Shown here: piece after piece, positions 279-21,595 of the stretch
How positions within the stretch are numbered: position 1 is the first letter of the stretch
Layout of the letters: each line of letters starts with the position of its first letter
Origin: Nitrospinota bacterium
GTDB lineage: Bacteria > JADFOP01
Assembly (NCBI GenBank): GCA_022562795.1
Contig: JADFOP010000039.1
Span: forward strand, 1 to 21,595
Length of the DNA stretch: 21,595 bases
Direction of reading: 5' to 3'
Program-made: the position numbers and the translations under genes
The notes under the pieces: model-generated
What the model saw: only the letters and a program-made list of their open reading frames with translations
Database searches by the model: none
What the model was told of the DNA's origin: nothing

Positions 279-741
279 CGGTGGCCTGGACGTAGCGCAT
301 CCGGAGGTCGTAGAGGAGGCTTTCCAGGAGCTGGCTCTCGTCGTCGTCGAGGTTGCCCTTGGTTTTGTCCTGAATGACTCCAAGGAGGTCTATGGCGTGT
401 TTGGCTCCCGGAAGGTTCTTCTCGAACTTCTCACCCGCAGCGGCGTCTGGCTGCTCGCCCATACAGAGCAAGGCCTGGGTGCCTAGGAAGACCACCAGGT
501 AGTGGAAGTCGGGTGGCGGCAGCTCCTCCTCGGGCGGAGCCTCAGCTTCGGGAGTGGCCTCAGGCTGGGGGGGAGCCTCAACCTCGGAGGGAGCCTCAGG
601 CTCAGGGGGGGTAGAGGGCGCTTCGGGCTCAGCCGGGGAGGGCTCTTGGGCCTCCTCGCGCGCCCAGTGGCGCCGGTCAGTTATTTTAAATCCTCTCTCC
701 TCCGATTCTTCGGGAGAGTCGCTTTCGCGGTCCTTTGCCAT
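262..741 (-). CDS. DUF1844 family protein with Pro/Glu-rich linker
   Basis: The 159-residue product ends in a domain that resembles DUF1844 (about residues 80-150, with YLVVFLGTQALLCMGEQP and a C-terminal ESLLYDLRMRY). The biochemical role of this family is unknown. Residues 18-29 read FKITDRRHWARE and almost match residues 28-39 of GrpE from the same run. Between motif and domain is a low-complexity linker (about 30-77) of repeated Pro, Glu and Ala, encoded by imperfect 18-bp units. The ATG at 741 follows AAGGAAG and lies 13 bp after the dnaJ stop, so it is probably co-transcribed with grpE, fmdB and dnaJ. I infer a chaperone-related role from the company and the shared motif only. No signal peptide or membrane segment is visible. 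Confidence 0.85.
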   Translation of the reverse strand: MAKDRESDSPEESEERGFKITDRRHWAREEAQEPSPAEPEAPSTPPEPEAPSEVEAPPQPEATPEAEAPPEEELPPPDFHYLVVFLGTQALLCMGEQPDAAAGEKFEKNLPGAKHAIDLLGVIQDKTKGNLDDDESQLLESLLYDLRMRYVQATGPGAS

Positions 742-2852: not shown

Positions 2853-3719
2853 TTACCCTCTGGTTAATTCCATCAGCCGCTTGATGCGTTCCTCAACTGG
2901 AGGGTGGGTGCTGAAGAACCTCAGCATTGACCGGCCCCTGCTCCTGCTAAGGGGCTTGACTATAAAGAGGTGAGCGGTGGCCGGATTTCCGCCCTCGAGC
3001 GGCACCCTGCGGGATGCGTGGTCCAGCTTCTCGAGCGCCCGGGCGAGCCCCTTGGGGTTACCGGCTATCCAAGCCCCTGTGGCATCGGCCTGGTATTCCC
3101 GCGAGCGGCTAATGGTCATCTGAATCAGGAGGGCCGCTATGGGCGCCAAGATCGCCAAGACGATAAGGCCTATAGCTCCGCCGGGGGAGTCGTCATCGCC
3201 GGCAACGCCCCCGAAAAAGAACATGCTGAACATTAGCCATCGGGCCACCATCATGATAACGCCTGCGAGGGTCGCCGCGATAGTGCTGATTAGGATATCA
3301 CGGTTTCGGATGTGGCCGAGCTCGTGGGCGATCACGCCCTCTAGCTCCTCCTGGTCCATGAGTTCCAACAGCCCTTCGGTTACTGCGACCGCCGAGTTTT
3401 CCGGGTTGCGCCCGGTGGCGAAGGCGTTCGGGGTAGGCTGGGGGATGACGTAGACCTTCGGCATGGGAAGCTCCGCCCGCTGGGTGAGCCTTCTAACGGT
3501 GCCGAACAGGCTCGGGGCCTCGGCCTCGGAGACCTCCCGGGCCTTGTACATTCTAAGCACAATCTTGTCCGAGTACCAGTAGGCTCCGACGTTCATTACG
3601 ACTGCGAAGATGAAGGCGAAGATGAGACCCCCGCGCCCTCCCAGCCAATCGCCGATGAGCAGCACCAGGCCGGTCAGGGCCGCCAGGAGAAAGCCGGTCT
3701 TCAATGTGTTCCAGTTCAT
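2853..3719 (-). CDS. htpX: HtpX-type membrane zinc metalloprotease (M48B)
   Basis: HtpX proteases take part in quality control by cutting misfolded inner-membrane proteins. The 288-residue product has two N-terminal membrane segments (about 9-24 and 31-48), the zinc motif HELGH at 132-136, two further hydrophobic segments (about 143-170 and 181-203), and SREYQADA at 205-212, whose Glu208 would be the third zinc ligand. The conserved [10 protein letters not shown] (95-104) is also present. Length is normal for the family. The ATG at 3719 is preceded by AAGGAAG, and AAGGAG lies further upstream. Upstream is the first repeat array (3763-3853); downstream, grpE follows after 27 bp. Its place inside a dnaK/dnaJ/grpE block fits a heat- or envelope-stress role; I saw no convincing promoter of its own. 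Confidence 0.95.
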
Positions 3720-3762
3720 CTTCCTTTACACTCCTTCCCTTTTCCAGGGATATCCACTATCT

Positions 3763-3853
3763 GCGATTTTCCGCTAATTTCCATTTTCCGCGATTTTCCG
3801 CGATTTTCCGAATAAGTCAATTTCCGCGATTTTCCGAAAATTTCCAATTTCCG
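3763..3853. repeat. Array of ten-base GATTTTCCGC-like units, copy 1
   Basis: Nine short units ending in TTTCC or TTTTCC fill the gap between the DnaJ-like gene and htpX. The CC dinucleotides fall at 3771, 3781, 3788, 3798, 3808, 3824, 3834, 3844 and 3851, so the intervals are 10, 7, 10, 10, 16, 10, 10 and 7. The core 10-10-16-10-10 is identical to a second array at 20341-20430 in the opposite orientation. Both contain TTTCCGAATAAG. T-runs repeating about once per helical turn suggest intrinsic DNA curvature. I do not recognise a named repeat family. No frame through it looks like a gene. Confidence 0.8.
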
Positions 3854-3859
3854 AATATA

Positions 3860-4870
3860 TCATTTTTCGCGGGGTTTGTAGGCGGTCCGCTCTTCAAACT
3901 CCCTTATTAGCTCCTGGGAGCGCTCGTCTAGGTCCTTGGGCATCGTCACGTGGACTGTGACGTACTGGTCGCCGCGTCCGGAGCCCTTGAGCTTCTTGAT
4001 GCCTTTGCCGCGGAGGCGGAACTTTTGGCCCCCCTGAGTCCCAGGCGGTACGGTCATCGTGGTTGGGGCGTCAATCGTCGGCAGGGTGACCTTCGCTCCA
4101 GCGACCGCCTCTCCGACGGTAATGGGGACTGTCGTAAAGACATCCACACCCTGGCGGGCGAAGACCGGGTCGGGACGGACCTGCGTGATGATGAAGAGAT
4201 CGCCCGGCGGCCCGCCGTTGAGGCCAGGCTCGCCCTTGCCCCTGAGGCGAATCCTGCTTCCCGTGTCCACTCCTGCGGGTATCTTGACATTAAGGCGTTG
4301 GGTCTCTTTCGTCCGCCCGCGGCCGTAACAGACTCCGCAGAGTCCGCCGCCGCTCCGACCGCTGCCTCCGCACGAGCCACAGAGGCTCTCCTTCTCAAGG
4401 TTGAGGAGCCTAGTGGCGCCGTGGGCGGCCTCCAAGAAATCAATCTCCAAGTTGTATGTGACGTCCGTTCCCTGCCTGGGAGCATGTGCCTGCGAGGAGA
4501 TCCCCCCCCCGAAGGGCCCGCCGAAAAGGTCCTCCAGGCCACCGAATCCGCCCCGGCCGGAGCGCCCAAAGGGATCGAAGCCGAAACTGAAACCCCTCTC
4601 CTGAGCCACCCGCTCCCAGAAGGAAGAGAAGTCGAAGCCTTCGCCAAAGGCCTGGTGGCCCATTTGATCGTAGCGCTTGCGGGACTCGGGGTCGATGAGC
4701 ACATGATAGGCCTCCGAGATATCCTTAAACCGCTCCTCGGCTTCATTGTCTCCGGGGTTGACGTCCGGGTGGTACTTGCGGGCGAGCTTGCGGTACGTCT
4801 TCTTTATCTCCTCTGGGGAGGCGTTTTGCTTAAGCCCCAGGGTCTCGTAGTAGTTTTTAGCCTTATGCAT
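3860..4870 (-). CDS. DnaJ-like co-chaperone with a halved zinc region
   Basis: This 336-residue J-protein has a J domain at 5-70 (HPD at 34-36), a Gly/Phe-rich segment (about 75-125) and the two DnaJ C-terminal beta domains. The cysteine-rich region is short: only C164/C167 (CGSCGGSG) and C178/C181 (CGVCYGRG), two of the four CxxCxGxG repeats, enough for one zinc ion. It is thus intermediate between type I DnaJ and zinc-free CbpA. It starts 28 bp after the dnaK stop and surely shares the dnaK transcript, so it is probably the main DnaK partner under the heat-type promoter. Its Shine-Dalgarno site lies in a hairpin (4879-4892). A run of nine C on the plus strand (4502-4510) encodes glycines in the linker and could be slippage-prone. 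Confidence 0.94.
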
Positions 4871-19767: not shown

Positions 19768-20256
19768 CTAATTCTCCTCCTTAGCTGTGGGGATGGGCGA
19801 ATCCTCTGTGGCTTCCGCTGGGTCTTCTATATCGGCCTCGGGCGGCGCCTCTTGCGCCTGCTCCGGCTCTGCCTCGGCTTCGGCGGCCTCCTTGGCAGAA
19901 CGCTCCTCTGCCCGCCTCGCCTCCTCCTCAACCGCTGCGACGGCCGCCGCGCGGGCCTTCTCCACCTGGGCGCCCTCTAGCTTGACAGTAAGATGCTTGA
20001 GGATGTCCTCGGACAGCTTAAAGTTGCGTTCGAGATCCGGCACGACCTTCGGGTCGCCCTCGTAGTGCATGAGGACGTAGAAACCGTGTCTCTGTTTCTT
20101 GACATGATAGGCGAGCCGCTTCTTTCCCCATTGTTCGACGTTGATAACCTTGGCTCCATTGCTTGTGAGGATATCGGTGACCCACGCAACCCTCTCGGCC
20201 AAGGCCTCATCGCCGAGGTCGATTTTGACAATAAAAATGGTTTCGTAGAATGTCAT
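19768..20256 (-). CDS. rpsF: 30S ribosomal protein S6 with long acidic tail
   Basis: The first 97 or so residues are S6 (MTFYETIFIVKIDL, then KRLAYHVKKQRHGFYVLMHY). S6 binds S18 on the 30S platform. About 65 extra residues follow, rich in Ala and Glu and ending in an acidic, Pro-containing tail; part may be helical or coiled coil (AAAVAAVEEEARRAEERSA). S6 tails vary, but this one is long. The ATG at 20256 follows AAGGAG with five bases between. The gene opens the ten-gene operon and has a strong promoter about 185 bp upstream, with a leader hairpin able to hide its Shine-Dalgarno. Confidence 0.97.
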   Translation of the reverse strand: MTFYETIFIVKIDLGDEALAERVAWVTDILTSNGAKVINVEQWGKKRLAYHVKKQRHGFYVLMHYEGDPKVVPDLERNFKLSEDILKHLTVKLEGAQVEKARAAAVAAVEEEARRAEERSAKEAAEAEAEPEQAQEAPPEADIEDPAEATEDSPIPTAKEEN

Positions 20257-20311: not shown

Positions 20312-20340
20312 GAACGGAATTGCCGATGTAGCTCTTATTC

Positions 20341-20430
20341 GGAAATTCCCGGAAAATTGCGGAAAATCGATAATTCGGAAAATCCCGGAAAATCGCGGAA
20401 AATCCTGAGGGACCCTGCCGCACTCCGGAA
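20341..20430. repeat. Array of ten-base GATTTTCCGC-like units, copy 2
   Basis: CGGAAA or CGGAAAAT units, the reverse complement of copy 1, have their GG at 20341, 20351, 20361, 20377, 20387, 20397 and a lone unit at 20427. The intervals are 10, 10, 16, 10 and 10 (then 30), exactly the core spacing of the array at 3763-3853. It lies between the rpsF promoter and the leader hairpin, so it should be transcribed. Relative to transcription it is in the opposite orientation to copy 1. Confidence 0.8.
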
Positions 20431-20441
20431 ATTCTTTGGGA

Positions 20442-20591: not shown

Positions 20592-21595
20592 TTAGACGTT
20601 GAAACGGAAATAGACCACATCGCCGTCCTGGATGGCATACTCCCTGCCCTCAGAGCGCAGCCGCCCCGACTCTTTCGCCTTGGCGAAAGAGCCCAGCTCG
20701 CAAAACTCCTCGAAAGAGACGATCTCGGCCCGAATGAACCCCCGGGCAATGTCGGTGTGAATCTTGCCCGCCGCCTCCACGGCCGGCTGGCCGCGCACCA
20801 GGGTCCATGCCTTAAGCTCCGGCCCAACCGGGGTGTAGAAAGTGACGAGGTCGAGCATCCCGTAGCCGACCGTGATAAGCTTCTCGATGCCCCGCTCGGC
20901 CACCCCGGCCTCGGCCATAAATTCCTCCTGGTCCTCTGGGTCGAGGTCGAGGAGCTCCGCCTCCAGCTTTCCACAAAGGGTGATAACAGGGCTCGACTCC
21001 TCGGCCGCCAGAGACTCAAGCTCGCCTACCTCGTCGGGCGGCTCCCCCAGAGACTCCTCGTCGATGTTGGCGATGTAGAGCAGCGGCTTGGCCGTAAGCA
21101 GGAATAGCCCTGCCAGGGCGGCTCTCTCTTCTTCCAACCAGTCAACCCTTCGAAGGACCGTCCCTTTCTGGAGGGCCTCCCGGGCCTTCCCAAGCAAAGT
21201 GTGCTCTTCCCTGGCCTCCCGCTCACCGGTTATGGCCCTCCGCTCGACCTTTACGATCTGGCGCTCCACCGTGGCGAGGTCGCTCAAGAGCAGCTCGGTG
21301 GTGATGACCTCAGCGTCGCGCCTCGGGTCGAGGTCGGCGTAGGTGTGGGCCACGTTTGGGTCGGTAAAGCACCTGACCACGTGGGCCACGGCGTCCACCT
21401 CCCGGATGTGGCCCAAAAACTGGTTTCCGAGCCCCTCGCCGCTCGACGCGCCTTCGACGAGACCCGCTATGTCTACGAAGGCCAGGGTCGTCGCGGTGAC
21501 CTTCTCGGGGCCGACGATCTCCGCCAGCCGCTCAAGCCGATCGTCCGGCACCGGGACGATGCCCTTGTTCGCTTCAATGGTCGTGAAGGGGTAGT
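20592..21595 (-). CDS. ychF: Ribosome-binding ATPase YchF (Obg family), 5' end outside the window
   Basis: About 334 codons are present and the gene runs off the right edge. The first readable residues are YPFTTIEANKGIVPVPDDRL, typical of YchF about 35 residues after its start, so the P-loop is missing here only because the window ends. Next come LAFVDIAGLVEGAS (the G3-like region), GLGNQFLGHIREVDAV, the specificity loop YIANIDEE that replaces NKxD and gives ATP preference, a helical coiled-coil insertion, and the C-terminal TGS-like domain with ARGFIRAEIVSFEEF and YAIQDGDVVYFRFNV. YchF binds ribosomes and is linked to stress responses. An internal GTG at 21551 is not the true start. Confidence 0.96.
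   Translation of the reverse strand, partial: YPFTTIEANKGIVPVPDDRLERLAEIVGPEKVTATTLAFVDIAGLVEGASSGEGLGNQFLGHIREVDAVAHVVRCFTDPNVAHTYADLDPRRDAEVITTELLLSDLATVERQIVKVERRAITGEREAREEHTLLGKAREALQKGTVLRRVDWLEEERAALAGLFLLTAKPLLYIANIDEESLGEPPDEVGELESLAAEESSPVITLCGKLEAELLDLDPEDQEEFMAEAGVAERGIEKLITVGYGMLDLVTFYTPVGPELKAWTLVRGQPAVEAAGKIHTDIARGFIRAEIVSFEEFCELGSFAKAKESGRLRSEGREYAIQDGDVVYFRFNV

Follow-up and report, generated by a model that had tools for sequence, protein, structure and literature searches.

Most of the dispersed intergenic repeats known from bacteria are palindromic (REP, MITE) or are simple tandem repeats. Dispersed short tandem repeats occur in cyanobacteria as the STRR sequences; these and the heptameric repeats differ from the array described here in unit length and sequence, and we know of no three-unit module with a defined end in either. 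Heptameric repeats of Xanthomonas and Nostoc are dispersed short tandem repeats of bacterial genomes (PMC4692102). The TAACTGA direct repeats of the Beggiatoaceae, a seven-base unit in sets of two to six, occupy some 170 mostly intergenic places, are mostly oriented just upstream of start codons, are patchy between relatives, and are of unknown function (MacGregor 2015, PMC4679880). REPINs, on the other side, are inverted doublets that fold (PMC3116915).

The array shares features with two of these systems. Like REP and REPIN sequences with their RAYT transposases (PMC3116915), it is short, intergenic, present in many copies and non-autonomous, and a RAYT system is encoded in the same genome; it differs in having no palindrome or hairpin, in being built of direct 10-bp units, and in that the RAYT genes here are flanked by a separate hairpin element. 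Like the TAACTGA repeats, it consists of short direct-repeat sets of few units, dispersed and mostly intergenic, but its unit is of ten bases, usually present three times, with a common AATA end and with mixed classes of gap between genes as its sites.

Two arrays were located in the window, by which we mean the whole stretch of 21,595 nucleotides analysed. The features concerned are as follows, in window coordinates:

2853 to 3719, minus strand: HtpX-like M48 peptidase gene (Pfam PF01435), with array 1 on its 5' side
3762 to 3857, plus strand: stretch of about 95 bp, edges approximate, without counterpart in the htpX/dnaJ gap of the sister species, from alignments
3766 to 3783, plus strand: two outer units of array 1 (TTTCC starts 3768 and 3778)
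3783 to 3814, plus strand: first half of array 1, a canonical 32-bp module ATTTTCCGCGATTTTCCGCGATTTTCCGAATA (three units and AATA), both spacers consensus CGAT
3819 to 3846, plus strand: second module of array 1, decayed (third unit TTTCCA), 16 bp past the first
3848 to 3857, plus strand: outer unit of array 1 with the AATA end of the family (TTTCCGAATA), a few bp past the stop codon of the DnaJ-like gene
3860 to 4870, minus strand: DnaJ/CbpA-like gene (Pfam PF00226 and PF01556), with array 1 just 3' of it
19768 to 20256, minus strand: ribosomal protein S6 gene (Pfam PF01250), with array 2 on its 5' side
20336 to 20367, minus strand: second half of array 2, a module with the AATA end, 16 bp past the first
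20372 to 20403, minus strand: first half of array 2, a module ending in AATT, not AATA
20592 to 21551, minus strand: YchF-type GTPase gene (Pfam PF06071; its true start may be further upstream), with array 2 on its 3' side

In array 1, TTTCC starts on the plus strand at 3768, 3778, 3785, 3795, 3805, 3821, 3831, 3841 and 3848; in array 2, on the minus strand, it starts at 20401, 20391, 20381, 20365, 20355 and 20345. The two arrays are inverted copies (86% over 63 nt). These positions agree with the 10-10-16-10-10 core that an earlier note on this DNA had described in both arrays, and with the further outer units it had seen in array 1 (intervals 10, 7 and 7); the sixth core unit of array 1 is TTTCCA. 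The extent of 20341-20430 given there for array 2 was too wide, the core being 20340-20401 and the extra TTTCC at 20431 lying 30 bp off, outside the array. Exact 16-bp phasing, also emphasized, holds in both window copies but not genome-wide, where the gap is 15, 16 or 17 bp; a gap of exactly 16 bp in both was partly luck. Elsewhere in the window (528-638), 18-bp tandem repeats within an open reading frame encode a proline- and glutamate-rich stretch.

About 40 copies of the element are present in the 2.15-Mb genome (84 contigs). Array 1 gave 37 BLAST matches in the window's own genome; two-unit patterns matched 58 and 64 times and the three-unit pattern (one mismatch) 44 times, against none for the reversed-pattern controls in either case, which excludes chance. 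Forty-four stretches containing copies were examined, most with about 3 kb on either side, together with short later ones and control stretches. The basic element is one three-unit module rather than the double array: most copies are a lone three-unit module without a second half, and each long array consists of two adjacent modules. In its canonical form the module, AT-TTTCCGCGAT-TTTCCGCGAT-TTTCCG-AATA, measures 32 bp and has sharp ends, and the information profile of 40 aligned triplets is high from -2 to +29 and near background outside. The AATA end is a real boundary, since in-register units stand before 29 of the genome's 35 TTTCCGAATA words. In the copies read, the gap from module to module was 15 bp five times, 16 bp four times and 17 bp three times; a further unit followed 15, 16 or 17 bp past a run in 12 of 28 cases, against an expectation of about 0.2. 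The composite layout is a real feature, if a slightly loose one.

Variation among copies is unevenly distributed. Among copies selected by nothing but their last unit, 5% of TTTCCG positions and 16% of spacer positions depart from consensus, C to G and T to A being the usual spacer changes. Both spacers match the consensus CGAT in 18 of 40 triplets, and 97 of 98 later units retain an A-tract of five bases with no TpA. Units within one array are related copies, so neither the core and spacer counts nor the A-tract counts are independent. The less variable cores and near-universal A-tracts hint at constraint beyond passive copying.

Copies mostly avoid genes: two of 40 triplets were genic, compared with about 80% of bases by our home-made gene caller. 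Tandem, convergent and divergent gaps were all used, convergent ones by 9 of 34 arrays. Neighbouring genes include those for the HtpX-like peptidase, DnaJ, ribosomal protein S6, YchF, ThiC, GreA, AIR carboxylase, glucose-6-phosphate dehydrogenase, an amino-acid kinase with ACT domains, ExbD and a cold-shock protein; no common functional theme was found among them. A polar motif tied to the direction of replication was rejected (strand versus GC skew 13/10/9/8, no bias), and an orientation towards gene 3' ends (17 of 22, p = 0.017) was weak, inflated by contig-edge cases, and is not claimed. Palindrome-like words such as GGAACGAATTCCGTTTC recur near several arrays (L033, L036, L042, L049, L059).

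Within the genus, comparison was made with one other genome, that of the sister species (G001), which runs collinear to the window and is about 79% identical to it. Its htpX/dnaJ gap is a clean empty site for array 1, its rpsF/ychF gap is without array 2, and eight further gaps, located via the ends of their flanking genes, are all without an array (0 of 10 in total); the alignments show clean gaps at array 1 and at two other loci (L036 and L047). One related array occurs elsewhere in the sister genome, and none was found in a relative from the same class (G002). The simplest history from these alignments would be gain in the lineage of the window species; because the sister genome is 85% complete and the comparison a single one, some sites may instead reflect loss in the sister. 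The earlier note had proposed searching the genome and relatives and mapping copies against genes and strands. The search gave many copies, not just two, but no conservation in relatives; the mapping placed them mostly between genes and in both orientations. Its suggestion of a dispersed repeat family is upheld by the roughly 40 copies, their sharp common ends and the orthologous sister sites without them.

Structural candidates were also considered. The module forms no hairpin (folding z about -1 on either strand) and window positions 3700-3900 had no Rfam match at E up to 1, and an RNA structure was rejected. The terminal inverted repeats and target-site duplication of MITE and IS-derived elements are likewise missing: no opposite-strand GGAAA lay near 57 of 60 runs, save in the array's own complement, and no target-site duplication was apparent at the cleanest empty sites, which are few and in which the sister has diverged. 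Modelled curvature was slightly above that of shuffles in 38 of 40 single modules; composite arrays were not curved in the model because the 16-bp gap sets their halves about half a turn apart. An intrinsic DNA bend was therefore set aside.

Three Y1_Tnp (RAYT-type) genes are present in the window's genome (L057:1300-2500 on contig C36, L226 and L227); none was found in the sister species or the class relative. The element on their flanks is another one, a strong GTAGGGACAG hairpin resembling REP; GTAGGGAC-type hairpin repeats surround the genes, and a copy next to one of them has a folding z of -4.0. For two of the three genes an array is found no more than about 2 kb away, and a large TTTCCG array stands some 0.7 kb from one of the genes. 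RAYT-type repeat modules occur near arrays at 17 of 45 array loci and at 0 of 20 controls. Since the presence of array loci on small contigs might skew this association, it was recalculated for smaller contigs only, where modules lay within about 3 kb at 15 of 25 array loci and 0 of 20 controls (p = 1e-5), a figure that arrays near contig ends may still inflate. A REP-type module is present in the gap of the array in eight of 34 cases and absent in 26, which makes the link regional only: the two kinds of repeat share regions and are not one element. A longer repeated stretch lies immediately next to six of the arrays. Mosaic repeats between genes, as long as several hundred bp, are common to many loci (L060:1633-1886, L044:4400-4950, L065, L067, L069), and window bases 1-265 belong to them (78% to L060).

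Similar arrays exist elsewhere. In 385 other genomes the three-unit pattern gave scattered matches in seven, one match being that in the sister. Three-unit, ten-base TTTCCG arrays of unrelated genomes have different spacers and ends; two unrelated genomes (G050 and G026; L245, L246) carry several TCCGTGTTNA three-unit arrays at 10-bp steps, another repeat with a ten-base unit, with no reversed-control matches. A Candidatus Parabeggiatoa sp. nov. 3 genome likewise has, on at least 19 contigs, an element with three TTTCCGTGTT units at 10-bp steps, but complementary CACGGAA units precede them and can fold back, and its spacer and end are others; this foldable element of ten-base units, GCCACGGAA...TTTCCGTGTTTTTCCGTGTTTTTCCGTGGC, was seen at L073, L076, L080, L081, L085 and other loci. 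The differing spacers and ends, and a reversed control equally common in viral contigs, make the arrays elsewhere look independent, and no common family is claimed; broad kinship was rejected on these grounds and on the small number of matches among the 385 genomes, viral matches not exceeding the reversed control. The array itself was not found in viral contigs, phages or plasmids, and a phage or plasmid origin was discarded; nor was its sequence found in the literature searched.

Several explanations can be weighed against this evidence. Independent tandem slippage or chance might draw on the single occurrence of similar short tandem repeats in many genomes and on the viral control result just given, yet it is scarcely credible here, with the same AATA-ended module at many unrelated sites and no control match in the genome. 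Runs of two, three and four units number 23, 36 and 1, a distribution that is not geometric and that simple slippage would not be expected to produce; the earlier note's judgement against slippage stands, most runs also having the common AATA end. A conserved operator of a regulon is very improbable. The window arrays do lie upstream of htpX and rpsF, and their 10-bp direct repeats are similar to tandem sites of the OmpR/PhoB type; the ten orthologous gaps without an array are a strong argument to the contrary, the sister genome contradicting any conserved regulon, and the use of convergent gaps also counts against it.

Two further explanations are more probable. Under one, a putative lineage-specific nucleoid or regulatory protein would bind the three units on one face of the DNA, and its sites would have multiplied because they were useful. 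The prevalence of the three-unit form, a 10-bp phase of about one helical turn, the preferred gap of 15-17 bp between modules, the conservation of the TTTCCG cores, and looser spacers in which the most frequent changes stay within one base-pair class are all consistent with it, as are the A-tracts and the slight modelled curvature of single modules. We nevertheless find it doubtful, given flanking genes without a functional theme, the use of every gap class without a tie to GC skew, the failure of all ten sites to be conserved in the sister, and composite arrays that are not curved in the model. Under the other, a specific form of our preferred explanation, the arrays would be non-autonomous cargo of the RAYT transposase system. 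The finding of RAYT genes in this genome and not in the other two, the proximity of two of the three genes to arrays, the regional association and the six abutting repeats point that way; against it, the hairpin that flanks the RAYT genes is missing from the array, most arrays have no module in their gap, contig-end arrays may exaggerate the association, and both kinds of repeat could simply collect in the same permissive regions. As a full account it is a possibility to be held tentatively; RAYT mobilisation of the arrays is a reasonable suspect.

The array is a new lineage-specific, non-palindromic dispersed repeat with three units one helical turn apart; it is neither chance nor a conserved switch. 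Our best explanation, with a probability of about 0.62, is a family of very short intergenic repeats, lineage-specific and dispersed, REP-like but non-palindromic, that spread by copying. The proposed order of events is as follows: the spreading unit would be the 32-bp non-palindromic module, three 10-bp units closed by AATA, which after the split from the sister species was probably gained at many intergenic sites by copying, we infer, and not by repeated selection of new sites. Copies would have been tolerated because coding sequence was mostly avoided, and the long arrays would have arisen where two modules were placed adjacent, 15-17 bp apart. The first suspect for the copying enzyme would be the RAYT transposases, encoded here and not found in the sister.

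A sharply bounded non-palindromic module, multiplied in one species and missing at the corresponding sites of its sister, offers a clean case for how such repeats move, and the co-occurring RAYT system provides a direct suspect for the movement. More speculatively, and rather improbably at present, the element may be a hairpin-free mobile repeat that is recognised, through its three helically phased units, by the copying protein or by a lineage-specific architectural protein; if so, 32 bp of DNA would spread in a way that has not been described for REP or MITE elements.
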